From Cladocopium goreaui (taxonomy: Eukaryota; Sar; Dinophyceae; Suessiales; Symbiodiniaceae), in assembly GCA_947184155.2 (NCBI GenBank), contig CAMXCT020005057.1, positions 243,990 through 307,989 of the forward strand: a stretch of 64,000 nucleotides of DNA. The letters run 5' to 3'. Positions within the stretch are counted from its first letter, which is position 1. The number at the start of each line of letters is the position of its first letter. Shown here one piece after another: positions 7,725 through 63,297 of this stretch. The notes beneath the pieces were generated by a model. That model did not search any database. It was not told where the DNA came from and saw only the letters and a list, made by a program, of their open reading frames with translations. The translations under genes were made by a program, and so were the position numbers.

Positions 7725-7850
7725 CTGGTTGGTGGTTTGGAAGATTTTTTATGACTTTCCAGAAAATGTTGGGAATGGAAAATCATCCCAACTGAGACTT
7801 CGTCCCTCCATGATTCTTCCGAGGGGTAGGGTAGGTCAACCACCAAGCAG
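7725..7850. mobile_element. Family B element (B1)
   Basis: Left end CTGGTTGGTGGTTTGG. The right part is AGGGGTAGG...GTCAACCACCAAGCAG, the mirror with a small change at the tip. TAGG is present on both sides, a possible 4-bp target duplication. Confidence 0.85.
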
Positions 7851-8470: not shown

Positions 8471-8579
8471 CTGGTTGGTGGTTTGGAACATCTTTTATGA
8501 CTTTCCATATATTAGGGAATGTCATCATCCCAACTGACGAACTCATATTTTTCAGAGGGGTAGGTCAACCACCAACCAG
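8471..8579. mobile_element. Family B element (B2)
   Basis: CTGGTTGGTGGTTTGGAACA at the left and TCAACCACCAACCAG at the right, with the usual CATCATCCCAACTGACGA and TTTTTCAGAGGGGTAGG in between. 109 bp. Confidence 0.9.
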
Positions 8580-11910: not shown

Positions 11911-11960
11911 GGTTCCAAAGCCCTAGTGACTTAGTGATATGGTGGGGATTTCACCTTCAG

Positions 11961-12090
11961 CTGGTTGGTGGTTTAGAGTTTAGAACATTTTTTAGTTTTG
12001 CCATCATATTGGGAATAATTAATCATCCCAACTGACTTTCACTCCATCATATTTTTCAGAGGGGTAGGTCAACTAGAAACCACCAACCAG
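11961..12090. mobile_element. Family B element (B3)
   Basis: CTGGTTGGTGGTTTAGAG to AAACCACCAACCAG, 130 bp, with TTTTTCAGAGGGGTAGGTCAA before the right end. It lies between two Lys/Ala/Pro exons, so presumably in their intron. Confidence 0.9.
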
Positions 12091-12217
12091 ATAATTAATC
12101 ATCATTCACCATCATTAACCACCATTAACCACCATTAAAACACCATGGTCAACCACCAACAAGAAAGGCTTTTTCCGAATGATGATGATCTTCCAGGATT
12201 TGTAGGGAATGAGCCAG

Positions 12218-12298
12218 GCCTCCGCTGCGCGACCTGCGAAGCCGGCGCCGGCTGCTGCGCAGCCTGCACCAACGAAGCCGGCGCTGGGGAGCTCAGGG
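12218..12298 (+). CDS. Candidate exon of an Ala/Pro/Lys-rich protein
   Basis: Acceptor GAGCCAG, donor GGG|GTTTTC. It is exactly 27 codons long and reads ASAARPAKPAPAAAQPAPTK and then PALGSSG. It is the AP/KP counterpart of the exon at 11.8 kb. It probably belongs to the same gene. Confidence 0.55.
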
Positions 12299-13689: not shown

Positions 13690-13752
13690 TTCCATATTAT
13701 TCCCAACTGACGAACTCATATTTTTCAGAGGGCTAGGTCAACCACCAACCAC
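13690..13752. mobile_element. Right half of a family B element (B4)
   Basis: Only the CCCAACTGACGAACTCAT ... TTTTTCAGAGGGCTAGG ... CCACCAACC half is present. The left half is replaced by the TA tract after A7. Confidence 0.7.
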
Positions 13753-23955: not shown

Positions 23956-24047
23956 CTGGTTGGTGGTTTCAAACATTTTTCCATAATGTATGGGATAATC
24001 ATTCCCATTGACTAATATGTTTCAAGATTGTTAAAACCACCAACCAG
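23956..24047. mobile_element. Family B element, short subtype (B5)
   Basis: CTGGTTGGTGGTTTCAAACA to AAAACCACCAACCAG, 92 bp. This subtype has CAAGATTGTTAAAACC in place of CAGAGGGGTAGGTCAACC. Confidence 0.9.
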
Positions 24048-25206: not shown

Positions 25207-25407
25207 CTGGTTGGTGGTTTGGAACTTTTTTTTCCATATATCCCATAGGATCCATGTATGGTATATATGCTAACATTGGGGGTATATTGATGGTAAATGT
25301 TACCATATATAGCATACATGGATCCTATGGGTATTGGGAAGAAAAAGCCAATACTCCCGACTCCCAACTAATATTTTGCAGAGGGGGTTGAAACCACCAA
25401 CCATGCA
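25207..25407. mobile_element. Family B element interrupted by family E (B6)
   Basis: Left CTGGTTGGTGGTTTGGAAC, right TTGCAGAGGGGGTTGAAACC plus ACCAACCAT. A complete family E element lies inside, splitting the usual TTCCATATATGGGA text. Confidence 0.8.
25241..25340. mobile_element. Family E inverted-repeat element nested in B6 (E1)
   Basis: CCCATAGGATCCATGTATGG mirrored by GCATACATGGATCCTATGGG. TAT flanks both ends, so a 3-bp target duplication is likely. The second copy, at 37.1 kb, is flanked by TTA on both sides. Confidence 0.85.
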
Positions 25408-33763: not shown

Positions 33764-33924
33764 CTGGTTGGTGGTTTGGAACCATGGAATTTTATGACTT
33801 TCCATAATATTTCTGGGATAATTCTTCCCAATCTGACTAATATTGTTTGATTTGTTCCATAATATATGGGATAATCATCCCAATCTGACTATTTTTTTTC
33901 AAGATGGTTAAAACCACCAACCAG
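33764..33924. mobile_element. Family B element, lengthened (B7)
   Basis: CTGGTTGGTGGTTTGGAACC to AAAACCACCAACCAG, 161 bp. The GGGATAATCNTCCCAATCTGACTA core is present twice. TTTTAAACTGTG occurs at 33751-33762 and again at 33925-33936, framing the element. Confidence 0.9.
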
Positions 33925-40545: not shown

Positions 40546-40700
40546 CCATGAGTTCGGAGGCTTCCAGCCATGAGTTCTGAGGAACATCCTGTAACTCAAT
40601 GGTTAATAATGATGGTTAATCAATGGTTAATCAATGGTTAATGATGGTTAATAATGGTTTAATGATGGTTAATAATGGTTTAATGATGGTTAATGATATT

Positions 40701-40818
40701 TGGTTGGTGGTGACTGGAACCATGGAATTTTATGACTGTCCATTTCATATATGGAATAATCCTTCCCATTGACAAACTCCATCATTTTTCAAGATGGTTA
40801 AAACGCACCACCAACCAG
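40701..40818. mobile_element. Family B element (B8)
   Basis: TGGTTGGTGGTGACTGGAAC to ACGCACCACCAACCAG; CAAGATGGTTAAAA subtype. Confidence 0.85.
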
Positions 40819-45984: not shown

Positions 45985-46545
45985 TGTATTTTGTATTAGG
46001 GTGCCCCAGATATTCCAATGAAAACCCAAATAAAGATAAAAACCTCGAATTCAAATTTGATTAGATCCCTTATTAAACTCTATATAAAATATTGCCAAAA
46101 ACTGGATTTCGAAACTTTACCCCAATATTCCAATGAAAACCTTAATAACAAAACTAAAAAAAAACTTGATTTCAAATTTGATTAAATCCCTTTTTAAAAT
46201 CTATATAACGTATTGCCAAAAACTGGATTTCGACTTTTTCCCCTAACATTAATGAAAACCTTAATGACAAAAATAAAAAACTCGATTTCAAATTTGCTTA
46301 AATCCCTTATTTAAATTTATATAAAATATTGCCAAAAACATCCAAAAACTGGATTTCGAAATTTACCCTCAATATTCCAATGAAAACCTTAAAAATACAA
46401 ATAAAAAAGACTTGATTTCAAATTTGATTAAATCCCTTTTTAAAATCTATAGAAAGTATTGCCAAAAACTGGATTTCGAAGATTTCCTTCCCCTAATATT
46501 CCAATGAAAACCTTAATAAAACTGAAAAATAAAAACTTGTGAGAT
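45985..46545. repeat. Tandem array, unit about 115-128 bp, about 4.5 copies
   Basis: Each unit has TATTCCAATGAAAACCTTAA, CTTGATTTCAAATTTGATTA and ATTGCCAAAAACTGGATTTC. Starts of the AATGAAAAC box: 46017, 46132, 46251, 46379, 46503. Unit lengths vary through small indels. Confidence 0.9.
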
Positions 46546-46734
46546 GGGACCCTAATAAAAAAATCTCCAGGTGGCAATTTATGGTTGAACCCATTTTTTC
46601 ACCATCCTGTTCTCCGATTAATTCTCAATTACCACAATTAAGAATCCAATTGTGCCCAACCAAAAGAACAAACAGAAGTGCCACACCAATCCTATTTTTT
46701 TATTTGGGGGAGTTTTAGTAGTAGGAAGTTGGGG

Positions 46735-46962
46735 TTCATGTGGGTAAAACAATGCAATAAATTAACCATCCCCCAGTCATCACCATAAGTATATAGATAT
46801 ATACAATGTGAGGCCCCCTCAGTTATAAGTTGGTTTAGATTCGCCCCAGTAACTATAGTCTATAGTTATAAGTACCATAAACCATAGTTATTGGAGTTAT
46901 GTTCACCAACTTAGCTATCTTGGGGGCCTCACATTGTATAGGTGGTATGGTTACCATTCCCA
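46735..46962. mobile_element. Family H element interrupted by family C (H4)
   Basis: CATGTGGGTAAAACAATGCA to CCCCCAGTCATCACCATA at the left, GGTGGTATGGTTACCATTCC at the right; C5 lies between. H2 gives the uninterrupted order. Confidence 0.8.
46802..46938. mobile_element. Family C element nested in family H (C5)
   Basis: TACAATGTGAGGCCCCCTC to GGGGGCCTCACATTGTA, 137 bp. TA at each junction fits a TA target duplication. Confidence 0.9.
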
Positions 46963-46980
46963 AATGTTTCTTTCGTTCAG

Positions 46981-47041
46981 CGGTGACGTGTCGGCTAGGC
47001 GGCGGCGAAAGTCTTTAAAGTGGACGACCTCACGGCGACAG
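46981..47041 (+). CDS. Candidate exon, Arg-rich
   Basis: TTCGTTCAG acceptor and CGACAG|GTGGAA donor. One frame is open and reads GDVSARRRRKSLKWTTSRRQ. It starts in phase 1, unlike most neighbours. Confidence 0.45.
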
Positions 47042-47091
47042 GTGGAACACAGAAGTTGGGTCCTGTTGGGTCTTAGAATTTTTGAATATTG

Positions 47092-47111
47092 CAATGTGAG
47101 GCCTCACATTG
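47092..47111. repeat. Perfect 20-bp palindrome, family C ends fused
   Basis: CAATGTGAGGCCTCACATTG is exactly the two outer ends of family C joined with no interior. Confidence 0.9.
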
Positions 47112-47226
47112 TGTGATTTTATGTTAATTTGATCATTTACAATGCGATTTTATCATCTTATAAAATCTTATAAATAGTGTCTAGATATTTATTCATGGTG
47201 TTGTTTGTTCTTGAAAATACCCTCAG

Positions 47227-47268
47227 GTCGACGATGTCGCCCCGACCTCACTAGAAATGATGACAAAG
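47227..47268 (+). CDS. Candidate exon, 14 codons
   Basis: ACCCTCAG acceptor and ACAAAG|GTAACG donor; VDDVAPTSLEMMTK. Both sites are strong and the length is whole codons. Confidence 0.5.
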
Positions 47269-47433
47269 GTAACGAGTGACCTTGTCCTGGCCGAACTTTT
47301 TAAGGCTGGTGAAGTTTATAAATAGATCCAGATTTTCCCGTGAAAACCAGAAGAATTTCAGGGCTTATGGATTGCTATCATGCCTAACCCAAATCTTAAA
47401 AGATTAGCTAGGTTGTCCTTTAAACACACCATA

Positions 47434-47532
47434 TGGGAGTATCTTAAAATCGTGGTACCCGTAAACCGTTCATTTTATGTTGTTCCATTATAAACCATCC
47501 ATTTTGGGGCATCCTCTTTTATGGAAAACCCC
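47434..47532. mobile_element. Family F element (F3)
   Basis: GAGTATCTTAAAATCGTGGT then ACCC, right end TTTTATGGAAAACCCCC; interior GTTCCATTATAAACCATCC as in other copies. Confidence 0.65.
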
Positions 47533-47595
47533 CATATGCCAATTAATGAAACATATCCACATTAGATTGAAACCACAGCCTGACCACAGCGTCAG

Positions 47596-47638
47596 GACAA
47601 GCTTTGGTTGAAGCTATCGAGGCGGAAAATCATCCGCG
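47596..47638 (+). CDS. Candidate exon, ankyrin-like helix
   Basis: CAGCGTCAG acceptor and CCGCG|GTTTTT donor. It reads QALVEAIEAENHPR, resembling the second helix of an ankyrin repeat, but too short to be sure. Confidence 0.4.
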
Positions 47639-48032
47639 GTTTTTGTTTGGGTACTGACTAAGATGCCACAATGTGTGGTTTGTGGTTTATGTTGTTGCAA
47701 AAATACTCCGGAAGAAAATAGACTTTCAATATTTTTGAATATTTTTTCAAAATATTCAATAGCTATCAACAACAACATCTACTTGTCATAATAGCTATCA
47801 TATAGCTATCATACTACAGTTGTCACGGCTGTCATGACAATTTTTGGACCATGAGACCGTTCGGAATCTCTCGGTTGATTGGTCTTTACAGCAGGGATTT
47901 CACCATCCAGCTGGTCGGTTTGAGACGACTGATCCAGCAGAATATAGGTAGGTCTTAAAACAAGTGAACATCAATAGCTGGTTGATGTGGGGTTTCATGA
48001 TGGTGAAAATCATGGTTAATGATGGTTAATAG

Positions 48033-48198
48033 CTGGTTGGTGGTTTGGAACACTGCCGGGCAACGTCTCACATAACGTTGCGCGCATCGCAAAGTGTCGC
48101 AAAGTGGTGGTTTGGAACATGAATTTTATTTTCCATATATGGGATAATCCTTCCCATTGACTTTCATATTTTTCAAGATTGTTAAAACCACCAACCAG
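48033..48198. mobile_element. Family B element with inserted GC-rich piece (B9)
   Basis: CTGGTTGGTGGTTTGGAACA is followed by about 55 bp of GC-rich sequence (CTGCCGGGCAACGTCTCACA...), after which GTGGTTTGGAACATG restarts and the element runs to AAAACCACCAACCAG. ATAG flanks both ends. Confidence 0.85.
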
Positions 48199-48205
48199 AT
48201 AGTCA

Positions 48206-48330
48206 TGGGGGGTTCCTAAGTCACAGGGGTACCCCTAGTTATCATCCACTCACAAGTGGGATTTGATGATGTTCTATGACATAAACCATCCAGCGATTTC
48301 TAGGGTATCCCCACTTATTATGGAAACTCC
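48206..48330. mobile_element. Family F element (F4)
   Basis: GGGGGGTTCCTAAGTCACAG then GGGTACCCC to ATTATGGAAACTCC; begins 8 bp after B9. Confidence 0.75.
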
Positions 48331-48593
48331 TTATCTAAAACAATAACGATCGACCATAGATCTACACAACTGGGATGGCCGGCCATCCGAGTATGGGATC
48401 AGGCCATCATGCGGAGGGATAGGAAAATGGGCCAGGGCCAGTCCTATCAGTCCTGAAGATATAAACCAACTCTTTCTTATTTTGATCATGTTGTTTTGAA
48501 CTATTATGGAGGGGTTGGAGATGGTTACATTCCATGTGTTGTTTTTTCCTTGCAATTCTCTTCTTTAAACGTCTTTAAACTGCGCTTCGACCA

Positions 48594-48743
48594 TGGGTTC
48601 GCTGAAGAGACGCCGTTGTCAACGGACCGCCACCGTGCAGGCGGAAGATTGGACGGCGGCTGAAAAGTTGCTGAATGAGAGGCCGACCATGGGTGATCTC
48701 ACGGCCGACCACGGAACCGTACTCGGTTTGGCCGCAGTACAGT
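48594..48743 (+). CDS. Candidate ankyrin-type open frame
   Basis: Starts with ATG and has 49 codons to a TAG. After a possible acceptor GTGCAG at 48640 it reads AEDWTAAEKLLNERPTMGDL then TADHGTVLGLA, which has the spacing of an ankyrin helix-loop (xxAxxLLxx...). A possible donor is ACTCG|GTTTGG. Whether this is one exon or two is open. Confidence 0.4.
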
Positions 48744-48812
48744 AGTTGCTGTATTGACGGTGGATATATGAGTAGTTGCTTGTTTTCCATATGAGTAGCT
48801 ATTAACCATTGA

Positions 48813-48870
48813 AACAACAACAACAACAACAACAACAAGAACAAGAACAATAACAACAACAAAAAACGAT
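48813..48870. repeat. ACA microsatellite
   Basis: (AAC)n with AAG interruptions. Confidence 0.9.
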
Positions 48871-49004
48871 GTCACAAGAAAATATTATATAATTATAAGT
48901 ATGACTCATGTGACTTTGAGCGATCGGAACTCCCTTTTTTTTCGTATGGTATTTCCCCATTCTGTCGTAAGATGATTACATCTCATTTTACTTGAGTATG
49001 TTCA

Positions 49005-49115
49005 CTGGTTGGTGGTTTCAAACATTGCTTTTATGACTTTCCATTCAGTTAGGAATGTCATCATCCCAACTGACGAAGTCCATCATTTTTCAAGATGGTT
49101 AAAACCACCAACCAG
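49005..49115. mobile_element. Family B element (B10)
   Basis: CTGGTTGGTGGTTTCAAACA to AAAACCACCAACCAG, 111 bp; TTCA directly outside both ends. Confidence 0.9.
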
Positions 49116-49167
49116 TTCAAATGTCTGTAACTGTTCTTGCTGATTTGTCTTTCCCCACGCCATGCAG

Positions 49168-49211
49168 GCCTGAAGAATGCGACGTGAACGCGTGGCTTGG
49201 TGGAGACTCAA
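49168..49211 (+). CDS. Candidate exon next to family F
   Basis: GCCATGCAG acceptor. Reads PEECDVNAWLGGDSM and meets F5. DVNAW is ankyrin-like. The donor lies inside or at the edge of F5 and is not obvious. Confidence 0.4.
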
Positions 49212-49315
49212 TGGGGGGAATGGAGCCAACTTGGGGATAGCCCAATCGCTGGATGGTTTATTTCACATGCAAAGTCCATGGGAAAAAATGGATGATTTGG
49301 GAATTGAGGTACCCC
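49212..49315. mobile_element. Family F element (F5)
   Basis: GGGGGGAATGGAGCCAACTT then GGGG at the left, ATTGAGGTACCCC at the right, directly followed by C7. Confidence 0.65.
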
Positions 49316-49444
49316 TACAATGTGAGGCCCCCAGTTATAAGTTGGTTTATAAGCCCCAGTGACTATAATAGTTATAAGTACCATAAACCATAGTTATTGG
49401 AGTTATAAACCAACTTAGCTATCGAACGGGCGCCTCACATTGTA
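49316..49444. mobile_element. Family C element (C7)
   Basis: TACAATGTGAGGCCCCC to GGGCGCCTCACATTGTA, 129 bp. Confidence 0.9.
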
Positions 49445-49651
49445 GTTTAGGAAAGCTCCATTAAATGGCATGGGCTCGATTATATCATAGGATTTTTCGA
49501 GCAACCCCAAAATAGGATACGTAGCTTAAATGAGTATTGGTACCTTATTTTTGAAGCTCACAACGACCCAAAAAATTGCCAAAGATGGTCAGGAATTGTT
49601 CTCTTAAATGGTGTGCATCTTATATTTGTATCTTTGGAGTAGGATTATTTT

Positions 49652-49843
49652 TCATCTCACAACACCGGAGGCGCAGCCAGGAAGCATGGGAGGCCCTCCG
49701 GTGTCATCAAACATGGCCCGGAAATCGGTGGCTCGTTCCCTGGGACAATCATCCATGCGGATGACTATCCTTTTCTGCAATTTTCCCAGTTCGTTGGGAT
49801 GATTTTCCCCATGGATTTTCGCCACCTCCATTTTAGATAGCAA
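49652..49843 (-). CDS. Hypothetical open frame, strand uncertain
   Basis: Minus strand reads MEVAKIHGENHPNELGKLQK then RIVIRMDDCPRERATDFRAM, convincingly protein-like. On the plus strand two frames are also open (PEAQPGSMGGPPVSSNMARK). If minus-strand coding, it opposes the surrounding ankyrin exons. Confidence 0.35.
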   Translation of the reverse strand: MLSKMEVAKIHGENHPNELGKLQKRIVIRMDDCPRERATDFRAMFDDTGGPPMLPGCASGVVR

Positions 49844-50010
49844 ATATATAGTTGTTTTTCAGCCATTCAGAAAAAAACTACTATCATAGATGTTCATATT
49901 GGATGTCAGTTCAGCCACCAAATGTGCATATCTAATTATTAGTTAGATGTTCATGTTCCCATTATTTTCCCTACTTCCATTTTACAAGAATTCAGATAGT
50001 AGTAGATAGT

Positions 50011-50125
50011 CTGGTTGGTGGTTTGGAACATTGTTTGTTTTTCCATTCAGTTGGGAATGTCATTGTCATCATCCCAACTGACGAAGTCCATCATTTTTCA
50101 GAGGGGTAGGTCAACCACCAACCAG
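50011..50125. mobile_element. Family B element (B11)
   Basis: CTGGTTGGTGGTTTGGAACA to GTCAACCACCAACCAG, 115 bp. Confidence 0.9.
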
Positions 50126-50271
50126 CCTAGATGTTCCTAGCATCAGTGTCCCTATGATTCACCCAATATCACCCCAAAATTTCACGACCATTTCAAGGCG
50201 CACCAGCGATTGGCATTACTGTCTTCTCCGCTCGGGGCTCGGCATTTTGAAAAACGACCGGTGGCGCAGTT

Positions 50272-50362
50272 GACCGAACCCTGGAATCATGGTTAATAAG
50301 GGGAATCATCCCCAAAATGGCCGAACTTTTCAGGTTAGTGAATTATTGTAATTTGCCCAGAT
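50272..50362. mobile_element. Family I element, right part (I2)
   Basis: TGGAATCATGGTTAATAAGG then TTCAGGTTAGTGAATTATTG and AATTTGCCCAGAT match I1. Confidence 0.6.
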
Positions 50363-51411
50363 TTCTGAGGAATAATCATGAAATATCATGAATATATTGA
50401 GATGATCAATTGTTGATTTTCATTCATATTTTTTTGGTCATCATTGAGATGATTAATCATTGATGATCATTGATGATGGAATTTGATCACAAAAATGATT
50501 GTAATGTGACAAGTCGACCATGGGATTCACCCAATTTCCCATTAAAATCGACCAGTTGGGATGGAGTCTGAATGCAACCCATTTAAGCGGCGAAAAAAAA
50601 ATGGACGGTCTATGCGCGGTTTACCGCATTGATTTATGGAAAATATGAAGAAAGCTTGGTATCTAGTAGAACATGGTCCATGGTAACATCGCCAGGTTAG
50701 TAACCATTAGTTTCCTTGCCAGTGTAAAATGGTAATTAACATCAGGAATTTGGTAAAATCACCAATGATGTCGGAATCGCTACCTGTTTCATCCTTTTTC
50801 AATCTGGTTCAACGGCAAAAATCGAATATTCTGTCAATGTTTGGAAACTATGGATCTGCTGGTGCCCGGCTGAATACATCCAGCAATGTTCTTTTATGGC
50901 GAATGATGCGGTGCGATGAGCATTGAAATGAGACAGGGCAATCCGGCAGCCGTGCCAGCATTGTTTTTTTCGTTATGTTGATTTGTTTTATGGGAACATG
51001 ACGCTAACCCGATGTCGAAGTGCCTTATCTGCTCATTTAGGTGAGATGACCCGTGAATATGTGTGATATCAGTGTAGATCAGTGTAGCTATGTGTTCCAT
51101 GTGTAAAACATGTTGATATTTACCATAAACGGGTATTGTCACCAAAGCCATCGATAGGGGTTAATATCGATAGGGGAATATCTGATGGTGGGATAACAAG
51201 AATTATTTCATACCCTGCTTTGACCATGACACCTCTAAAATGCAAGAAACATGGGACTATATCTCCTAGTGGAATGCATTTTTTCTTGTTTTTTTCTTTT
51301 CTTTCCAGAAGTGAACATTTTTGTGAATTTATTGAGCCCTACAACAATAGTTTGATGCCAAGGGTTCCCTATTGATGGTCCCAAAGTCCCAGTAACTGGA
51401 AGCCGTATCAG
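50363..51411. other. No gene recognised
   Basis: Spacer with ATTGATGATCATTGATGATG text. Open frames on both strands are unsupported. Confidence 0.45.
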
Positions 51412-51446
51412 TCGCCAAGGGGGAGATGTGCATCGATAAGTTTCGG
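51412..51446 (+). CDS. Candidate micro-exon
   Basis: CCGTATCAG acceptor and TTTCGG|GTGAGA donor; AKGEMCIDKFR. A TAA lies upstream in frame, consistent with an intron. Confidence 0.35.
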
Positions 51447-51529
51447 GTGAGATTTTTTTTGACCTGCCTCTACTGTGTTGACGATGATGGTTGATGTTTG
51501 AGATTTTGAGGCCTCTCTTGTTTTATTCG

Positions 51530-51712
51530 TGGTGTTATTTTTGTGTGTTTTGTTGTTGGTTTTGTGGTTGGTTTCGTTGTTGGTCTGTTGGTTTTGTTCT
51601 TGTTCTTGTTCTTGTTGTTGCTGTTGTTGTTTTTGTTGTTGGTTGTTGGTTGTTATTGCTGGTTGTTGGTTGTTGATTGCTGATTGCTGATTGTTGATTG
51701 TTGTTGTACTGT
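51530..51712. repeat. GTT/GTTTT low-complexity tract
   Basis: TTGTTGTTGGT-type repeats; Gln/Asn-rich minus frame is an artefact. Confidence 0.9.
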
Positions 51713-51746
51713 GCATTGCACACTATGAGATGCACATTCACCACAG

Positions 51747-51826
51747 TCGTGGCATGTGTTGCATCATGCTGCTAGGGTCGCAGCGGCCCAGAGAAGTCTT
51801 GTTTGGGCACATAGGGCGCCAAACGG
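51747..51826 (+). CDS. Candidate ankyrin-like exon
   Basis: TTCACCACAG acceptor, phase 0. Reads SWHVLHHAARVAAAQRSLVW then AHRAPNG. LHHAAR is typical of the first ankyrin helix. It ends at the edge of family F copy F6. Confidence 0.45.
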
Positions 51827-51827
51827 A

Positions 51828-51927
51828 TGTTTCCTGAAATATGGGTACCCCCAAATCATCAATTTTAATAGAATTGTCCATTATAAACCATCCAGCTATT
51901 GGGGTACCAACACTTATGGAAACCACC
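51828..51927. mobile_element. Family F element (F6)
   Basis: GTTTCCTGAAATATGGGTAC then CCCC to TTGGGGTACCAACACTTATG then GAAACC. Confidence 0.75.
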
Positions 51928-52068
51928 CAAATAGACGCATATAGAAACAAAGACTTGACTAAACTTGACTTTTGACTAGTCAGCAGCAGCAAGATGTTCG
52001 CCATGTTACTGCGCCAGCAAGCATCAAAGCAATGTTCCTGCTTGAAATCAGGCAGTCAATATACCACA

Positions 52069-52180
52069 CTTAGATGGGCCGTGGGATTAGCTAACTAGTT
52101 AGTAAGTGGGATATACATTACGTATATCAAAACTATAATCCATGTACTAACTACTTAACTAACTCCATGGCCCATCTAAG
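52069..52180. mobile_element. Single inverted-repeat element (family M)
   Basis: CTTAGATGGGCC and GGATTAGCTAACTAGTTAGT mirrored by GTACTAACTACTTAACTAAC and GGCCCATCTAAG. 112 bp. Confidence 0.75.
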
Positions 52181-52732
52181 CACGGATCAACATGGTGTTT
52201 ATCAACGAGAACGTAAGTACACTAGATGAAGTTCTCGACAGATCTTTCTTGCGATCCTGGGTGAAAGAAACTGCTGCTATTTGCCCAGCTACCTAGCTAC
52301 TACCCACATGCAAATCGATATACCCACCAGACGAAAGTGTTTGATACCTGCGGCAGTATGAGAACCTCCAAAGGATGTATAGACGAACACCTCGATGTAA
52401 CAGCGGTGCCTGCGCCGCTGTGCCACTGTAGATTCTACATGTTGTTCTTAGATGTAAGTTTCCTCCGGGTTATTATGCGATTTTCTTGCGAACTTGTATA
52501 TTTTTTGTTTTCGGGAAGTTCGGCTTTAAGAGTAACCATGGGGTCCAAAAAAGATACCATGTTCAAAACATATTTTATTACATAATCATGTTTTGAAGGT
52601 TGCCCACAATTTTACTTTTGATTAATCAGTTTTGATTGATATTCAAAAACATGTTGATTAATACTAATCTTTGCTGGTAATATAGTTGATTTGATCAAGT
52701 TGTTGATGATTTTTTCGCCATGTTCCAATCAG
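52181..52732. other. No confident gene
   Basis: A plus frame 52337-52585 includes MRTSKGCIDEHLDVTAVPAP and may hide an exon near 52.35 kb; splice limits not found. Confidence 0.4.
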
Positions 52733-52816
52733 GTGCTGCGGCGGAGGAGGGCGCAAGGGAGACGTGCCGGAAGCTCTTGGAGCATAAGGCGGGGGAGCCG
52801 TGGGCACGTTCTAGCG
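52733..52816 (+). CDS. Candidate ankyrin-repeat exon
   Basis: CCAATCAG acceptor and TAGCG|GTAGGT donor. Reads AAAEEGARETCRKLLEHKAG then EPWARSS. ETCRKLLEHKAG matches the second ankyrin helix (xxxxxLLExGA). The exon begins with two bases of a split codon and ends with one, 84 nt in all. Ankyrin repeats mediate protein binding; the partner is unknown. Confidence 0.6.
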
Positions 52817-53028
52817 GTAGGTGAGGGCCCCCAGTGATGTGAATGTTGGTTAACAAAAGCCCCAGGAATACTAGTTCGTTATTTGCGTACCATAAAATAT
52901 TGGAGTTATAAACCATAGTTAGCTAAGTTGGTGTATAAGTCGAATAACTATGGTTTTTGTTGGTGATGTATCTATAGTTAATGGGATTATAAGCCATTTA
53001 TAACTGGGGGGGGCACCACCTTGTAGGT
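52817..53028. mobile_element. Chimeric family C/D element
   Basis: The left GTGAGGGCCCCCAGTGATGT is family C. The right TAGCTAAGTTGGTGTATAAG ... AACTGGGGGGGGCACCACCT is family D. Its first bases form the donor of the preceding exon. Confidence 0.7.
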
Positions 53029-53319
53029 GAAATATGATGATATTGAGCCAGATAGTAAGAGGTGCTAATTAGCTTTCTGGATTAAAACATCCTCGATGAT
53101 TATAGTTGAATCAACTATGGTGAAATTGAATCAGATATGTGAATCATGTTTCAACAGCTATAGGATTGGATCAGTAGATGTCATTTTGCAGGAAGATTTA
53201 TATAATCCAGGAACGATAGCCTGGAAACACATCGGAAACTCCTCCCTCAAGGGATTGCCATGCCCAACTTGAGGAAGACCCGGTTTCAGTTTGACCTTGA
53301 AACTGCTAGTGTACTATAA

Positions 53320-53422
53320 CTGCTTCGTGGTTTGGAACATGAAAAACATATTTTTCCATATATGGGGAATTTCATCATCCCAACTGACTCATATTTTTCA
53401 GAGGGGTAGGTCAACCACCAAG
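53320..53422. mobile_element. Family B element abutting an ankyrin exon (B12)
   Basis: CTGCTTCGTGGTTTGGAACA (decayed left end) to TTTTTCAGAGGGGTAGGTCA then ACCACCAAG. The next base starts the ankyrin exon. Confidence 0.85.
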
Positions 53423-53501
53423 GCCGACGTCAACGCCCGAGATCAGAACAACATGACCCCGCTGATGGGGTGCATCGTTGGAGGCGACCTGGGGTGGCTT
53501 G
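53423..53501 (+). CDS. Ankyrin-repeat exon
   Basis: Phase 0 after CCACCAAG. Reads ADVNARDQNNMTPLMGCIVG then GDLGWL, a clear ankyrin repeat start (xDVNAxDxxxMTPLxxAxxxGxxxxV). The likely donor is CTTG|GTTCGG. The acceptor belongs to the tip of the B12 element. Confidence 0.7.
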
Positions 53502-53752
53502 GTTCGGTAATCTACCACTTAATCTGCTACATAAATGATCTGATTTTGGATATGGGGAGATTGATGTAACAATTCATAAGATATAATTATATATATGATT
53601 ATGATTATATTACAGTATACATTTAAAAACAGTGGATTTGTAAGGCATCTTAGAGTGGCCATCAATTTGTTGGCATGGAAATGAGCTGTTCATAAGACTC
53701 CTTATGAACCAGCGAGAAAGTACCATGGCCCTTTTTAAGTAGACGACTTGAA

Positions 53753-53764
53753 GTAGCCATTTTG
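53753..53764 (+). other. 12-nt match to the dinoflagellate spliced-leader core
   Basis: GTAGCCATTTTG is identical to an internal part of the conserved 22-nt leader, then the match ends. Too short to call an SL gene or relic. Confidence 0.2.
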
Positions 53765-53819
53765 AGGTTGCGGCCAATAGCTTAAGTCTTTGGTACTTTG
53801 GTATGTTGTACCTCTTAGG

Positions 53820-53940
53820 TAAACCATCTGGTTCTGACTAATACTAACAGTTCGCCATGGAAAATCACCATTTTTAAGAACGGTAAACCATCTATAAATG
53901 GGCCATTTTCCATGGCTATGTTAGTCATAACCAGAGGGTA
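53820..53940. mobile_element. Family A element (A18)
   Basis: TAAACCATCTGGTTCTGACT to TTAGTCATAACCAGAGGGTA, with GTTCGCCATGGAAAATCACC inside. TAAACCA is present at both edges. Confidence 0.85.
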
Positions 53941-54016
53941 AACCATACAACATCACAACAACCATGATACCATGGATGTTTTCATGGAAGTGATTCGCCA
54001 GTTCCATTTATGTCAG

Positions 54017-54112
54017 GGCTCCTCCCATGGTGACTCAAAACGACGTCAAGCTGCGTCAGGTGATTACAACGACATCGTGCAGATGTTGTTGGAGGCTCCC
54101 AATTTTCTCCAC
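54017..54112 (+). CDS. Ankyrin-repeat exon, 32 codons
   Basis: TTATGTCAG acceptor and CTCCAC|GTTTTC donor. Reads GSSHGDSKRRQAASGDYNDI then VQMLLEAPNFLH. GDYNDIVQMLLEAP matches the loop and second helix of an ankyrin repeat. Whole-codon length. The retroelement lies in the presumed next intron. Confidence 0.6.
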
Positions 54113-55072
54113 GTTTTCAGTTCGGAACACAAGGGGAATTGATGAATGGCACAGCCATATGGGATTCCCCGTGGAGAATTTAAGCATCAAACATAGGGTA
54201 AATCCAATGGATGGCATGGTATTGGCATGGTATCCATTGGCTTCTGAGATTGACCCGTGGCATGCACCCGTTTTGACGAAGGTTGGAAACCCCAAACGGC
54301 TCAGCTGAAAACAACCCAAATGCACAATCAGTATATACAAATATGACAAATTTCAAAAAGATCAACACCTTTTTAGAGGTCCCATCACAGCATTTTTTCA
54401 AAAAAACTGATTCCCAAAGGCTTGGAAATCGACGGATTATGGATGGTTGTGCCATGTTGGATGCCACCTTTGGGGTTAGTAACGAGCCCATTCATGGATG
54501 GTTCCATTTCAGTGGGTAATTCCACCATTTATCAATCAACAAATGGATACACATGATAATTCCATTTACAAGTGGTTGAACAACAAATGGGATTCAAATT
54601 GGTTGAACATCAAATCATTTGATTGAAGAACAAATCAAATTGTCGGCATATGCGGCATATCCCGATGTTGATTGGTAGATTGATCCAGTCCTGACAGAAA
54701 AAAATGGTTCAACGAGCACACCCATTGCATAGTTGTGATTCTATCCCATCCCCATTTTATATCATTTTATCCCATTAAGTTTCTTGTATATTGATGGCTT
54801 TACCACATTTTGATGTTCCCATTTGTTGTTGCTAATCCCTCATTGATCAGCCAGATCCGGATGGAAATGGATGGAAATATTCCCATGACATCCTGATGAC
54901 ATCCCCATTGCTGGTTGTACACATCGTGTTTGACCATTAACACCTGTATATTCTGTGGTGGAACCATGAACAAGAAAGAACATACTGGACAGGTTTCCTG
55001 ACCATATACATATATATATAATTATATATATATATATACATAATTATATATATAGAATTATATATATATGGG
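54113..55072. other. No gene recognised
   Basis: Spacer. Open frames on both strands at 54.03-54.5 kb have no motif. TA microsatellite at about 55010-55068. Confidence 0.5.
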
Positions 55073-55077
55073 TATAC

Positions 55078-55310
55078 TGCAGCAGGCACACAGTGGCAAC
55101 GTGTCGGGCTCAAACTCAAACACCAAATGCAAAAGAGCGCTCAGCTCTGTTTTCACCGGTTGGACGCAGAGTCCAAAGTCAGCAGCCCATAGGTCGAGGC
55201 TGGGTCTAATCTATTAAAGAAAAGGGGCCCCTCCTGAGCCAAGCATTGCAGACAAGGGCCAGTGGTCGAACATGAAGTCGTAGTGGCGAACCTGACATGG
55301 ATCAGTTGCA
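55078..55310 (-). repeat. 3' LTR of the copia-like element
   Basis: 233 bp, identical by eye to 63313-63545. On the element's strand it starts TGCAACTGATCCATGTCAGG and ends GCTGCA. The pol frame runs 97 nt into it and stops at 55214-55216. No purine-rich primer tract is seen just upstream of it. Confidence 0.95.
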
Positions 55311-58300
55311 CCAGCATAGAAAGAAAGATCAGGTTTGCCACTCAGGTAGTCGTTGATCTGATTGATCGCTGTTTTTCCTTCCTTCTTGTTCTTCTTTGAG
55401 GCAATGAACTGCGGATCGTATTTTACAGCCAACAGCCATGTCTTGAGGAACTTCTGGAGGCCAACTCGACAGTCTGGACGCTTCTTTGTCAAACTGTCAC
55501 CCAGGTCATAGTCACTGGCTACCCAGCGTAGCTTGGAGCCAGCACGCTGAAGGTATTCTCGAAGTTGTAGAGCTTGGAGTGCAGAGCGGGTGTTGCTCAA
55601 ACCAAGAAGAGGACTCTCGTTGTAGAGCACTGCATCGAAACCAGCTTTGCTTTCAGTGCAAAGAAGTCCTTCTACTTGTTGCACCATTTCTTTTGAAAAT
55701 TCCACTTTGTTGGCATCGCGGGGACGAGAAAGTCCAGCACCATGAATTTCGCACCAAAGGGGTCGGGCGCGGAAATTCCAATCTTCACCTTCAAGTACTG
55801 CTTGAACTTCTGCGTCATTGGATCCAAGAGCCTTGCGACGAAGCTTCCAGGTTCGCCAAGCCAAAAGAGACATAGGACAAACTTCTCCTTTCAGAGCTTC
55901 AGGACCACTCATCAAAGTGATGATCCCCCCAGTCGAATCACCTTTGTCTCGATTCGCATGCGCTTGGTCGGCCATTGTTATGAAGCAAACATCGCGCCAG
56001 GTCTTCGCAGTTTTGTGCTTGAAGAACTTGACCTCATAGGATTCACGGCGAATTTCGCCAATCATACGTTGAATTTCCATGGCATAACTCATCTTCCCAA
56101 ACTTGATGACTTCAGTGAGGAGGAGATTACAACGAGCACAAAGTTGAGGCTGAGTTTGTATTGCCAGCCATTGTAGTGCGCCAAGAGCACCTCGGCAAGC
56201 AGCAATCTCATGAGAGGTCATTCGTGCATCTTCTTGTCGTAATCTATCTGCAGGGATGTCAAGGTCCGGGAGGGAGTCCACATAGTACTGCTGGCTGACG
56301 GAGATGACAAGGTCGCCATCGTTGTCGCGCTTCACCTGAATGTCAGTGCCAGCATGACGATATGCAGAGTGTTTGGCTGTTCCCCATCGGTACGCTGCAT
56401 CTATTTTTCTGCAAACCTCATTCCACTTTGCATTGTTAGGGTCACCAGTTCGGTGAAAGTCATCCACATGACCACCCATCATGCCAATGGTGAATGGTTG
56501 TTGGGTTTCAGGGTCTTCATCATACCAAACCCAAAGACATCTTTCACCCAAGGCAGGATATCCGCCAAGTCCAGTGAGGGTCTTGTGCAGGTCAAGCCAT
56601 AGTCCACGGGGAGCAGTAGTGCTGCCGTAGATGTTTCGCATGACTTTCATGATGCCATTGGTGTCAAGTCCAAGTGCTGAGCGAAGTTCAGCTACACCAT
56701 AAGTCCACAAGTTGGCATCTGCAGACGTAGGAGCCGTCTGGAGAAAAGCAGTTGCTAAATCCAAACCTTCAAGTTGCCATGAGTGTTGGCAAGTGGCCTG
56801 GTAGAGCAAATTGCGCGCCAACATAGACTGCACAGGTGAGGACGTTTTGTAGTCCACATTGCCGATCTCAGGATGTTCAAAACCCAGTAGCACAATGCGT
56901 GCTTTCGCCTTCATGAGACCATCTGAAGTATATGTTGAGGAAGGGTTCGTTGAAGCATCTTGTCGCGCTTCATCTTGATCTTCAGGAGGCACAAGTTTCC
57001 AGGTTAACACCCAGCGAGCACGAACAATGCGTCCACCGCCCATTGCTTCTCGCACTTCATCATTTCGGTGGCAGGCTTTCACTGCTTCATTCTTGAGGAA
57101 GCTGTCGATTTCTTTGCCCTTGGCACGAGCAAAAAGTTCACGATGTTGAGGAGACAGCTTGCTGAGAACCACTTCAGAGTCACGCATCTTTTTGACAAGA
57201 TACGCAGTGGGGCTTCTGAGGAAACTCTTGAACTGCCGGTTTGACATAAAGTCCAAGTCAAACTGCATGGAGAGGCAATCCAAGTCATTGTCAACAACCA
57301 GATGGTAAAAGTCCAAAAGTCCATCATCTGGTTGATGTAGTTCCTCCACCCATTTGAGGTCATACTGAGAGGAATGTTGTTCCCTCAGCAGGGTTCTCAT
57401 GTCTTTGTCATCGTTGATCTTTTGCTTCTTAGGGTAAGGTAGAGGTCGAGGAGAGACATCATAGTCGTTGACATCGCGTTCCAGCAACTCTTCCAAGCCA
57501 GGAGAGTCAGATGCCGCAGGTTCCAGTGCTGCAGGTTGAGAAGCACTGCCAGGTTCAGGTAGTAGTTCAACATCATCATCACCTGCTTTGGGCTTCCAGT
57601 CATCTGGAGTCAAGGATTTCTTGCCAACGATCTTGGAGCGCGGTTGAAGTGCAGGATCAGAAAAAGTGACGCCTTTCTGGAAAACCTTCTTGGCCTGTTT
57701 GGCCACAGCCGCAGGCACAGCTGTCGATTCGTCGGGTCGATCAGGTAGATCTGGATGTTCACGTTCATCTTCACCAGGAACCTGATCAGTGATGTCAAGG
57801 TATTCACGTTGAGGTAGGAAATCAGCTAAGGATTTCCACTTGGTGACGTCTTGTTTGTCGCACACTTCAAAGGTGACACGCTCGGTGTCGGTGACAGGTC
57901 TCACCGAATGAGCACTGCAGCGCAACAGCTGCGATCCCACCAACACCCATAGGATGTGTCTTCTCTCATCGCCTTCTTCTTGATGATGAAGCACTTCATG
58001 GAAAACCACACGTCCTGGACCAATCCAGTGAGGCTTGATACTTCGTTGAAAACCACCACGTCGGCCAGGAGCAAGTAGGTGTGCAGGCCATTGTTTGCGC
58101 CAAACCATGACTAAGTCCATAGGTTCGAAGGTGCGCAAAGGCTGCTTCACGCTGGAGTTCTTGAGCTTTGACATCACACGTAGAGCTCTGGTACGACGTG
58201 CAACTTCTTCAGCACCTTGTCGAGCTCGAACCAGGGCCTCATACTCAAAGTGCTTGGTGATGTCCGGCAAGCTGGCAAAGGTTCTGATCTCTTCATCGGT

Positions 58301-59011
58301 TATGGTGTAGTCCTTGCCATAGCACCACTGAAAAGAGGAGTAGCCCTTTGTGTACTCAGTACTGTTGAGAGCCGCACACGCAAGTTGGAGAGAAACATCA
58401 GGAGGTAGAGTTGGTTGTCCAAGCTGAATTGCAGAAGCCGTCATCTTCACATCTTTGATTGCTGACTCAACAAGTCCATGAGCCCATGATTCCTTCTCAG
58501 CCGGCAAGCTGAGTTGGATGCCCACATTGGTGAGGAACTCGTTCACGTCGGTGGCCGTAAAGACAGAGGAGTTGTCAGGCACAACAAGTCGAGGTTTAGG
58601 CTTATCGGCCAACCATTTTTCAGCAATCGCTTTGATGACATCTTCAGAGCTTTCGGACAACATTTGCGTCAGCCCATACGATTTCACCACATACACCGCA
58701 CGGAGCTTGGTGGCAAAGTCAATGAGCAAGATGAACTTGATCTTGATCTTCTGGTCGGGGACATGCCATTCGCTGGAGTCAGCTCCAACGATTTCCCATG
58801 CTTTGCACAAGGGGTGAGTGGTTGCCCTTGGCACTTCACCTGAACTCTTGCTGCCTTGTAGAAGTCGATCACAAGCATCGCATCGAAGGTCGCGAGCCAT
58901 TTCGATCTTCCATTTGGGGAGACCAGCATCACGGAAAAGGTGGATCAAGTTCCTGTTTGATGGATGTCCTGCTGCACGGTGGTAGTGCTGCAGTTTGGCA
59001 TACCATTCTTG
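55214..59011 (-). CDS. Copia pol: integrase, reverse transcriptase, RNase H
   Basis: Open from just after a TGA at 59012-59014 to 55214. It begins with an integrase zinc-finger segment (HYHRAAGHPSNRN ... CDACD). Residues below are counted from the Met at 58948. The integrase core has D57, D125 (VVPDNSS) and E161 (HGLVES), with exactly 35 residues between the last two, the DD35E signature. RT has LEGLDLATAFLQ near residue 728 and the catalytic box HVDD at 827-830, where most copia elements have YVDD. RNase H has MADQAHANRDKGDSTGG near 992 followed by SNDAEVQAV. Total about 1,265 codons. The domains look intact; the upstream stop and frame changes separate them from gag. Confidence 0.95.
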   Translation of the reverse strand, partial: QEWYAKLQHYHRAAGHPSNRNLIHLFRDAGLPKWKIEMARDLRCDACDRLLQGSKSSGEVPRATTHPLCKAWEIVGADSSEWHVPDQKIKIKFILLIDFATKLRAVYVVKSYGLTQMLSESSEDVIKAIAEKWLADKPKPRLVVPDNSSVFTATDVNEFLTNVGIQLSLPAEKESWAHGLVESAIKDVKMTASAIQLGQPTLPPDVSLQLACAALNSTEYTKGYSSFQWCYGKDYTITDEEIRTFASLPDITKHFEYEALVRARQGAEEVARRTRALRVMSKLKNSSVKQPLRTFEPMDLVMVWRKQWPAHLLAPGRRGGFQRSIKPHWIGPGRVVFHEVLHHQEEGDERRHILWVLVGSQLLRCSAHSVRPVTDTERVTFEVCDKQDVTKWKSLADFLPQREYLDITDQVPGEDEREHPDLPDRPDESTAVPAAVAKQAKKVFQKGVTFSDPALQPRSKIVGKKSLTPDDWKPKAGDDDVELLPEPGSASQPAALEPAASDSPGLEELLERDVNDYDVSPRPLPYPKKQKINDDKDMRTLLREQHSSQYDLKWVEELHQPDDGLLDFYHLVVDNDLDCLSMQFDLDFMSNRQFKSFLRSPTAYLVKKMRDSEVVLSKLSPQHRELFARAKGKEIDSFLKNEAVKACHRNDEVREAMGGGRIVRARWVLTWKLVPPEDQDEARQDASTNPSSTYTSDGLMKAKARIVLLGFEHPEIGNVDYKTSSPVQSMLARNLLYQATCQHSWQLEGLDLATAFLQTAPTSADANLWTYGVAELRSALGLDTNGIMKVMRNIYGSTTAPRGLWLDLHKTLTGLGGYPALGERCLWVWYDEDPETQQPFTIGMMGGHVDDFHRTGDPNNAKWNEVCRKIDAAYRWGTAKHSAYRHAGTDIQVKRDNDGDLVISVSQQYYVDSLPDLDIPADRLRQEDARMTSHEIAACRGALGALQWLAIQTQPQLCARCNLLLTEVIKFGKMSYAMEIQRMIGEIRRESYEVKFFKHKTAKTWRDVCFITMADQAHANRDKGDSTGGIITLMSGPEALKGEVCPMSLLAWRTWKLRRKALGSNDAEVQAVLEGEDWNFRARPLWCEIHGAGLSRPRDANKVEFSKEMVQQVEGLLCTESKAGFDAVLYNESPLLGLSNTRSALQALQLREYLQRAGSKLRWVASDYDLGDSLTKKRPDCRVGLQKFLKTWLLAVKYDPQFIASKKNKKEGKTAINQINDYLSGKPDLSFYAGATDPCQVRHYDFMFDHWPLSAMLGSGGAPFL

Positions 59012-60007
59012 TCATTCTTGTTCAGAGACATCATCGCCATGTTGAGGAGCTTCAAGTATAGAAGGTTCATAGCCGTCAGACAAATCGCCATCATCAGGTA
59101 CAGGAGGAAGAACTTCTTCAACAGGTAGAGCTTGAAGACGTTGAGTCCATTTCACATCACACTCTGCATGCTTGGAGTGCACCGCAGCGTCAGGAGAGGT
59201 CAAGGCTTGTACATGGCGTTGAGGAGCAAGTTGATTCTTCCAATGCCGCACAATTGCTTCCACCATCCGCACTGGATAGTATGCAGAGCGAGCTGTTTCA
59301 ATCCCCTGTATGAGAGCATGCTGATGATTTCGAGGGCAAACCTTGCACTTGAAGTTGCGATGGAAGAGCTCATCATTGGTGCGAATCTCCCAGCGCTTGT
59401 GGATGAACGCTGAGTCATCGGAGTTTCGCATCCCATAGTTACATCCATCGATTCTACAGTGCTCCCATGATTAGCCACGTTGCAAAAGTCCATGCTGCAG
59501 CGAGACCATAGGAGGCTGAGACCATCCAGAACATGGAAAAGTCCACTCCCAGTACACATCAATGTCTGGGTCATCATCAACAGCATTGAGGATGAAGTCT
59601 TTGGCATAGTGCATCATTCGACGGTCTCGTCGACGAAGATCTTCGAGGACCGCCTTGCGCTCGTCAGTGTTGTAGTTGACATTGGTCCATTGGCACCAAT
59701 GAGTGCACGGTAGTGAGAGCCAAAGTTTCTTGGGACGCTTGATCTTCCGCAGGCGTTCCATCTCCATCCATGCAGACTTCTTGTAAAGGTCAAAACCTTG
59801 CTTATAGTTGATCCTTCGTGCTGGTAAACCATGGTTGAGAGCCGCTTGAGTCAGCCAACTGTTGTCAGCACATGCAATCTCCCATAGACATTCCCGTCCA
59901 TCCATGGCAATCTGCAAGGCGAGGTGACTCATAGTTACCGTCATCATCGTCACCATCTTCATGACCTTGGAGCCCATCGTAGTGGTCAAAGGCAGGCTCG
60001 AAGAAGT
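59012..60007 (-). CDS. Methyltransferase-like and Cys/His-rich region of the copia polyprotein (broken)
   Basis: One frame carries LWEIACADNSWLTQAALNHG, then GFDLYKK and KKLWLSLPCTHWCQWTNVNY, then DIDVYWEW and PCSGWSQPP, and after a TAA at 59471-59473 continues EHCRIDGCNYG ... FKCKVCPRNH and SAYYPVRMVEAIVRHW. The order glycine-loop-like motif, xPCxxW, acidic-aromatic motif resembles a Rossmann-type DNA (cytosine-5) methyltransferase core, though the canonical PCQ is absent. C5 methyltransferase-carrying retrotransposons have been reported in dinoflagellates. A TGA at 59012 ends the frame before integrase. Confidence 0.75.
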
Positions 60008-61275
60008 CATTGGCTTTCTTCGGTCAGGATGACTTCGTCGGGTGGTGCCATCCCCTTTCTTGCAAGCACCAGGTTGCGCAAGTCGATCTTTTCCTGCTCG
60101 GTCAGGAAGTCCTCCAGGTTGCGACGATCTGGTGAATCCAAAATCGGATCCCAGCTGCTGTCGGAAGGACTTGTCATCGGCGAGCTCTGGTCCATGTAGC
60201 CCATGGTGACAACCATCTTCTTTTCCACATTCTTTGAGGCTGCCTTGGACTTTGGGACCTTCAAGGAGTTCTCGACGTTGGGCTTCTCCAGCAGGTACTG
60301 CACTTTGTTGCTCAGCGTTTCCTCCGCGGTGATCTTGTCCAGCATGGCTTTCACGATCTCTTCCGTCGGAAGTGCACCACGAAGCATCGGCTGGAGCAGC
60401 ATCAAGGCCTTCTGAACCATCGCCGCATTGTTGACCACGGTGTGGCTGGAAGGAGATCCCTTCCTTGGCTGGTACCACAGGCGGAGGGCACAACCTTCGC
60501 AATTGGCCCAAGCGCCATGTGGATTGCCCTGTGGGTCCCCTCCACATGCTTTCCATTGCACGGCCATGTCGCCGGTGAAGCACGTGGATCTCGAGGATCG
60601 TAGGACATTGTTCTCTCTGGGCCCAACGGGCGAGCACATGCTTTGCTCTTTGCGTTGGCTTTCACATTGGTCAGCACCTCCGCTTCCTCCACAGGAGTCA
60701 GGCTTTGAGACGAGGTCGCCATTGCCAGTCGCAGTGGTAGGAGCGGGGGCTTCTACAACTTCTTTGTCGGCAGAGTTGCCCATCTGAGCCATGTTGTGGC
60801 CACATCGAAAAAGTTTTCGCAACAGCTCTTCACGATCATGTTTAAGAGGAGAAGATGTAGAAGAGGAAGAGGAACATGTCTGCTGGGTAGTGTAAAAATC
60901 AAGAGGACGAAACTGCAAAACAGGTTGTGCAAAAAGTGGATCAGCTTCAGCAACAACATTCACTTGTGCATGCCCTTCTGCTCTGGTTTGACCACGTGTG
61001 AGATGGTATAAAATATCGTACATATAGTGTTTCTTCGGATTGACTGGTAGTTGATATACTTCTGGATTATCATCAACGCCATCCATCGCTAAACCAGATC
61101 CAAAGTCAACCAACATTTGACAACCATGTGCACCAAGATGATCCATGCCAATCAAAATGGGGACAAGCTGTGACTTGTCAAAGTTGGGCTGGTAAAACTC
61201 AATTGGATTTGGAAGTGCATACAATGAAAACGTTTTCTTTTGACCAGAACATCCGAACAAATTTCCAGTTTGTAC
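60008..61275 (-). CDS. Copia protease C-terminal half and linker
   Basis: Lies in the -1 frame relative to gag and opens after a TAG near 61274. It starts FGCSGQKKTFSLYALPNPIE and includes SQLVPILIGMDHLGAHGCQM then LVDFGSGLAM, the second half of a copia-type aspartic protease (VPxLIG...LG...xDF). It continues with a Cys/Trp zinc-like segment (WKACGGDPQGNPHGAWANCE then GCALRLWYQ) and a helical, charged linker, and stops at 60007. The next coding text (FFEPAFDHYDGLQGHEDGDD) is in a third frame for about 80 nt. Confidence 0.85.
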
Positions 61276-63068: not shown

Positions 63069-63297
63069 TGCTGCAAAATGCAGGCTTTGAGGTAAAAGTT
63101 GATCGTCAGGATCAAGTCAGTCTCCACTTCGCCTTCACGAAGTCAAACTCACGGAAAAAGTGCTAAAATAAAAATGAAAGCTCGTGCAAAAAGTCCAGGG
63201 ATGCCGTTCGGCAAAAGGTCCACCGCTGCTAAGACGCCGGCCAAGGTCACAAGGGCTAGGTCGGGTCGCAGCAGGTAGCTAAGGCCCCGGAGCGTAG

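Follow-up and report, generated by a model that had tools for sequence, protein, structure and literature searches.

A worn MITE end at a predicted ankyrin splice acceptor in Cladocopium goreaui, and the one-way orientation of its family

In a 64,000-nt stretch of the Cladocopium goreaui genome (C5053:243990-307989; hereafter the window), a worn copy of a repeat family, family B, ends at the base before a predicted ankyrin exon. This arrangement raises the question of whether family B is an introner, its copies making introns, or whether a single copy came to provide a splice site for an intron that already existed. The preliminary description of this DNA favoured the introner, with the generic left end of the element giving a donor and the right end an acceptor. 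The reading preferred here, to which we give a probability of roughly 0.6, is that the copy (B12) inserted into a pre-existing intron and became its 3′ splice region with the tip as acceptor, the family not being an introner in the part examined. Genome searches covered 1,165,616,438 bases in 6,202 contigs.

The gene model and the elements that bear on it are as follows (slashes mark exon boundaries).

52733..52788, plus strand: predicted ankyrin exon 1, (G)AAAEEGARETCRKLLEHK; acceptor CAG/GTGCTG, donor AAG/GCGGGG (GC type)
52789..53422, plus strand: predicted intron of 634 nt, GC-AG, with AAGGC at both boundaries; best of 29 in-frame pairs, and Pfam comparison
52821..53038, plus strand: second repeat family (GAGGCCCCCAGT type) within the same intron; as many as 16 overlapping matches in the rest of the window and in 20 loci
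53320..53422, plus strand: B12, decayed MITE copy that forms the 3′ part of the intron; nhmmer E 2e-30, alignment, BLAST
53384..53401, plus strand: CTGAC, T tract and CAG inside B12, a rival acceptor; the exon would start at 53402, adding RGRSTTK in frame
53423..53483, plus strand: predicted ankyrin exon 2, ADVNARDQNNMTPLMGCIVG(G); donor G/GCGACC after 53483 or G/GAGGCG after 53480
54060..54109, plus strand: predicted ankyrin exon 3, end uncertain, GDYNDIVQMLLEAPNF; acceptor CAG/GTGATT

B12 is a decayed family-B copy of 103 nt. It matches the family-B profile over 53304-53421 (the profile having been built from 60 sequences, B12 itself among them), and plain BLAST also matches it to many other B copies. 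The letters 53393-53422 read ATTTTTCAGAGGGGTAGGTCAACCACCAAG, and from 53423 the codons GCC GAC GTC AAC GCC CGA GAT follow, encoding ADVNARD. The tip followed by an ankyrin exon in phase 0 was thus correctly described from the letters, and it is supported by the protein homology of the predicted joined exons. The frame of ADVNARD is open from 53273 to 53566, straight across the whole of B12, and an open frame alone therefore cannot place the exon start. GC content by codon position is 65/42/81% in 53423-53500 and 30/40/52% in 53273-53422 read in the same frame. A single read-through exon comprising B12 and the ankyrin exon (53273-53566) was considered and rejected: its codon-position GC is not exon-like, and the 50 added residues match no family (Pfam was run on 53387-53554 only).

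Exon 1 was placed on a GC-rich open frame, on exon scans (which chose a later donor) and on the gapless ankyrin repeat that it forms once joined to 53423. When exons 1, 2 and 3 were joined through an acceptor at 53423, the peptide matched PF00023 (Ank) at 33.2 bits (E 5e-8, cut-off 21.1) without a gap across the junction, with Ank_2 at 32.5 bits and Ank_4 at 27.4 bits. The internal acceptor at 53402 gave 24.9, 27.0 and 16.6 bits for Ank, Ank_2 and Ank_4, respectively, a deficit of 8-11 bits for Ank and Ank_4 and of 5.5 for Ank_2. When 29 in-frame donor/acceptor pairs were scored against an ankyrin consensus, the top two (19.8 and 19.4 bits) both used 53423 and the best other acceptor reached 15.4; the better-scoring of the two sets the intron at 52789-53422. 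Two exon scans, one over 46000-55200 and one over the whole window, also began an exon exactly at 53423, an agreement that is partly circular because the scan parameters were fixed after these exons had been seen. According to a table in PMC9412976, AG/G acceptors make up 96.1% and GC donors 43.6% in C. goreaui; AAG/G at 53423 obeys the AG/G rule and CAG/A at 53402 does not, which counts for the tip acceptor. On these predictions, the ankyrin exon starts where one worn B copy ends.

Two other readings of the exon start were weighed. The true acceptor might instead be TTTTTCAG at 53401 inside B12, so that seven element codons (RGRSTTK) would now be part of the ankyrin protein. The frame is the same and open, this site has the strongest T tract and the first AG after the branch-point-like CTGAC, and the joined peptide is still recognised as ankyrin at its lower score; nevertheless, the losses for Ank and Ank_4, the broken AG/G rule and a codon-position GC of 14/86/71% (only 7 codons), unlike that of the exon, make this site unlikely. 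We consider it very unlikely that the ankyrin gene is a decaying copy in which nothing is spliced. Such decay would suit an exon 2 that Pfam does not recognise alone (no match up to E 1; the ankyrin homology of this exon by itself is weak, at E 0.44, and the best in the window), as well as a genome DNA search with 53422-53620 that found only itself, very common words being skipped by that search. Against it, the three exons agree in order, phase and strand and together yield the ankyrin match at E 5e-8, and the codon-position bias is intact in exons 1 and 2.

What the tip contributes to the acceptor depends on how B12 lost its end. Family homology stops at 53421, with the letters CCACCAA. The family right end is CCACCAACCAG, also written CCAACCAG, which is not intact in B12: the terminal CCAG is missing or altered. 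The left tip, CTGCTTCG, carries two changes from the family form CTGGTTGG, and the flanks, ATAA on the left and GCCG on the right, share no 4-bp duplication. The G of AAG would be the family's own only if three bases (CCA) had been lost. The final AG of the intron is thus either B's own after a 3-base loss or an old acceptor fused to a truncated element; a single loss of CCA would make it B's own and the tip itself the acceptor. The proposal that the B right end provides the acceptor accordingly holds in so far as the exon, judged by homology, starts at the tip, and falls short in that the last bases of B12 are altered and CCAG is not intact. Direct insertion of B12 at the exon edge was ruled out, there being no matching duplication. 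A flank seemingly shared by B12 and another B copy (L020:5214-5321; 81% over 139 nt) was also set aside, the part to the left of the element being weak. B tip matches are frequent in the window (30 with up to 2 mismatches, 2.3 expected), and a single coincidence of tip and exon edge is not very improbable given about a dozen B copies and an uncounted number of exons.

MITEs are non-autonomous DNA transposons with terminal inverted repeats, short, with inverted tips and a duplication of fixed length. Family B shares with them its short length, inverted tips, fixed-length duplication and many diverged copies, and it is a MITE with 4-bp target duplications, spread through the 1.17-Gb genome. Of the 59 two-tipped copies in the window and 20 ten-kb loci, 22 carry an exact 4-bp duplication, where shuffled pairing predicts 0.92, and none has a duplication of 5 bp or longer. 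An enlarged set, from which copies were dropped if their orientation was ambiguous or a locus end was too close, and which included 60 loci picked for G on both sides, had exact duplications in 70 of 111 copies; in its unselected part the fraction was 25/56, with T and A favoured at the two middle positions. Genome-wide there are 1,106 two-tipped copies with exact tips and a 40-70 nt interior, and 1,994 copies (177 + 1,817) of the GGAACAT form. CTGAC or TTGAC is present in 50 of 60 aligned copies, and in 46 of 60 a T tract runs into CAGA or CAAG near the right end, so that B, read in one direction, contains what resembles a 3′ splice module. B12 itself, lacking intact tips and a duplication, is a decayed copy. 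The other B copies annotated in the window are the following.

7725..7850, plus strand: B copy; duplication TAGG
8471..8579, plus strand: B copy; no exact duplication
11961..12090, plus strand: B copy between predicted exons 11820-11901 and 12218-12298, at neither splice site
13691..13752, plus strand: right half of a B copy
23956..24047, plus strand: B copy
25207..25404, plus strand: B copy; right tip imperfect
33764..33924, plus strand: B copy
40700..40818, plus strand: B copy; tips imperfect
48033..48198, plus strand: full B copy; 4-bp duplication ATAG
49005..49115, plus strand: full B copy; 4-bp duplication TTCA
50011..50125, plus strand: full B copy whose 29-nt right part is identical to that of B12; no exact duplication

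The predicted exons within 11820-12298 are rich in Ala, Lys and Pro, and an extra right tip ends there at 12163. Longer direct repeats (about 12 and 15 bp), which are not 4-bp duplications, flank the copies at 33764-33924 and at 8449-8566 of locus L011.

As described in the legend of Figure 2B of PMC9860276, Symbiodinium microadriaticum Introners have inverted tips and duplicate 4 bp of target; the 3′ site is part of the element, and the duplication provides the 5′ site. Applied to family B, this scheme would need duplications of the form G[TCA]NN, copies in the sense orientation and flanks that are coding. None of 25 exact duplications in an unselected sample starts with G in the splice-competent orientation. 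Genome-wide, 177 copies have G after the right tip (splice-competent) versus 156 with the mirror arrangement (C before the left tip), which is no clear excess; chance can give such a difference, and there may be room for a small introner class. The 44 copies in the genome with GC at both flanks were oriented 22:22 (counted by eye; a few look like the same insertion copied), and the first 100 matches listed with G at both flanks 54:46 (by eye; four elements are present on both strands). Coding-like flanks joined across the element, in either direction, were found in 0 of 111 oriented copies, the number whose flanks were read out of about 2,000 or more; the best score was -3.3 and that of the positive control +23.6, on a rough measure of GC by codon position that had been tuned on the ankyrin exons serving as this control. 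A frame spanning the element at locus L026 (117 aa, GCCT duplication, splice-competent) was dropped, as it has no Pfam match. The expected enrichment of B tips at splice sites did not appear: among the candidate exons of 278 kb, none starts at a right tip, allowing up to two mismatches. Nor was the left end borne out there as a generic donor, as had been proposed: no candidate exon in the same 278 kb ends at a left tip (one ends 10 bases before a two-mismatch left-tip-like match), and the donor of this intron lies 531 nt before B12 begins. Introners could thus make up no more than a small minority of B copies.

For B12 itself, the element accounts for 103 of the 634 nt of the intron, its last part and not the whole, and neither B12 nor its duplication supplies the donor. 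B12 is not a simple introner, because donor and left tip are 531 nt apart, a second repeat lies between them (52821-53038, making up part of that distance) and ATAA and GCCG form no duplication. Of the introner claim, what is supported is a B12 tip at the ankyrin acceptor in phase 0, by protein homology; that B makes introns is not, given an intron six times the length of the element and no 4-bp duplication at B12. It could still be argued that B is an introner family and that this intron arose when B12 entered the ankyrin exon and duplicated GCCG, the donor coming from the first duplication copy (GCGG) and the acceptor from the right end of the element, and later insertions having parted donor and B12. 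Inverted tips, 4-bp duplications and an element-borne 3′ AG match the S. microadriaticum description (PMC9860276, Figure 2B legend); GCGG and GCCG agree at 3 of 4 bases, and AAGGC at both intron ends can be read as an old duplication; another repeat family did insert into this intron; and the 3′ splice module recurs near the right end of most aligned copies. However, the 531 nt would require a later insertion placed precisely at the joint of duplication and tip, and the absence of coding-like flanks, of candidate exons at right tips and of G-initial duplications, with the near balance of 177 and 156, also speaks against such an origin, which we regard as distinctly unlikely.

The preferred reading remains that B12 was captured by an older intron. 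The intron, running from 52789 with the donor AAG/GCGGGG, would have existed before B12, and B12 would have inserted into it. Later loss of DNA at its right end may then have brought B12 against the exon, so that the B-derived stretch, with its branch-point-like CTGAC and T tract, would now be the 3′ splice region, and AAG/GCC at 53422/53423 the putative acceptor. B12 probably did not create this intron, since its flanks share no duplication and the distance from donor to tip is partly filled by another repeat.

Several neighbouring features were recorded. The next intron (53484-54059) also has similar edges, GGCGAC and GGTGAT, and holds a MITE-like repeat with many copies (53815-53957). On the minus strand, 55214-63116 of the window is a copia-type retroelement with long open frames, with an RVT_2 match at E 5e-5 (below the Pfam cut-off) and weak integrase and zinc-knuckle signals. 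This retroelement and the character of the exons are dinoflagellate-like, probably of Symbiodiniaceae type.

Transposon ends or interiors that provide a splice acceptor are familiar as exonised or exapted splice sites; B12 would differ in lying at a predicted intron edge and not in a new exon. As far as can be compared by description, family B and the Introners of S. microadriaticum share a dinoflagellate host, terminal inverted repeats, 4-bp duplications and an AG end able to serve as a 3′ splice site, and they differ in that B has no clear enrichment of the splice-competent configuration and the tested copies lack coding-like flanks (PMC9860276). The dinoflagellate Introners of Roy et al. 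2023 (Curr Biol), as summarised in a review (PMC11453091), comprise many families in intron-rich dinoflagellates, and that setting is their likeness to B. The introner elements of Amoebophrya, as described in PMC7789003, also have inverted repeats and direct repeats of 3-5 nt, but they are whole introns with the repeats at the boundaries, whereas B12 is one sixth of a GC-AG intron. A literature search by the letters of the B tips returned no transposon or alga paper among the matches listed.

The copies in the window also have a consistent direction: all 12 family-B profile matches (7722-53422) point one way, the same as the ankyrin gene. In the window and 20 further loci (L005-L024), 62 B copies formed 134 same-locus pairs of the same orientation and 0 of opposite orientation. 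In contrast, control repeat families found de novo in the same DNA and scored in the same way are randomly oriented (33:27, 11:14, 8:8, 1:2, 2:1, 3:7, 31:35 and 10:11; sum 99:105, with copies of ambiguous strand dropped, 45 of them in the first family, and a tandem array of 16:0 left out). The range of the effect was measured on 241 B copies on 122 contigs among the matches listed, two of the searches contributing multi-copy contigs only. Among the matches listed, same and opposite pairs numbered 15:0 below 10 kb, 55:1 at 10-50 kb, 42:3 at 50-100 kb, 57:0 at 100-200 kb, 22:3 at 200-400 kb, 13:9 at 400-800 kb and 6:5 beyond, or 70:1 below 50 kb and 19:14 beyond 400 kb when pooled. Neighbouring copies, again among the matches listed, agree in 114 of 119 cases. 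The typed orientation was confirmed by profile matches in 79 of 80 loci (L025-L104), the remaining one having no match. Local duplication was rejected as the likely cause, as copies are no more alike within a locus (identity 0.715) than between loci (0.723). The family is thus orientation-locked, its copies nearly all pointing one way within domains of about 100 kb. In the literature searched, no report of an orientation-locked MITE in dinoflagellates was found by title or abstract opening. The five switches among the matches listed, one each on C25, C136, C142, C147 and C224, are candidate domain boundaries; that on C142 falls within 44 kb (111325 plus to 155475 minus).

B would be oriented along the direction in which the DNA is transcribed, or replicated. 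Once B had been masked, 16 of 18 informative loci had most of their predicted exons on the strand of B (p 0.001; L010 and L016 disagree; 21 loci were tested with a crude exon predictor and 3 had no predicted exons), and the base composition of the strands goes with B orientation (A/T skew, p 0.002; G/C skew, p 0.04). Pfam searches of 10 of the 31 predicted exon strings, from 7 loci, gave no match. Kinase and ion-channel genes located by Pfam were compared with B on shared contigs by eye, and 9 agreed (C101, C115, C1247, C518, C91, C668, C258, C1868, C2057) and 6 disagreed (C239, C954, C86, C1535, C1669, C2302), or 4:3 within 150 kb. Most of these markers lie a long way from any B copy, C1 was excluded as a probable bacterial contig, and the 9:6 result does not support a link with gene direction. 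Many of the matches, though, are long single-frame genes and may have been retroposed. One kinase gene has at least nine copies with nearly the same score and the same 446-aa frame (C1298, C4657, C1535, C1247, C518, C779, C2657, C2890, C557) and may have spread by retroposition or as cargo of an element. Contig C1 is at least 7.28 Mb long and has many long kinase frames without introns; it may be a bacterial genome that was assembled along with the rest.

Genes of S. microadriaticum are described in PMC8110479 as lying in alternating unidirectional blocks, whose scale could fit the orientation domains of B. There is nonetheless close to an even chance that the one-way orientation reflects the direction of replication forks, or selection against one orientation in transcribed DNA, and not insertion guided by transcription. 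The nearly random pairing beyond 400 kb and the limited agreement with Pfam-located genes point that way. On the other side stand the predicted exon strands, although selection would fit these too, the within-locus identity, which argues against local copying, and the other repeat families in the same DNA, which have no orientation preference. As a tentative view, held at somewhat less than even odds, B would be a strand-locked MITE with symmetrical tips that enters or survives in one orientation relative to transcription (or replication) across whole domains, carrying a 3′ splice module in the sense direction that would be used at the exon beside B12.

The splice-site coincidence, a single case of a mobile-element end at an exon edge, bears on how introns arise. 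The orientation lock is the stronger finding and bears on how dinoflagellates keep one-way gene blocks: nearly symmetrical tips should give an element no sense of direction, yet 134 of 134 local pairs agree. If B follows transcription, either an open strand under transcription guides its insertion or selection acts against one orientation almost everywhere, and selection so near to universal would say that nearly all the DNA of a block is transcribed. Were the tentative view of a strand-locked family true, B orientation alone would map the domain structure of a dinoflagellate genome.
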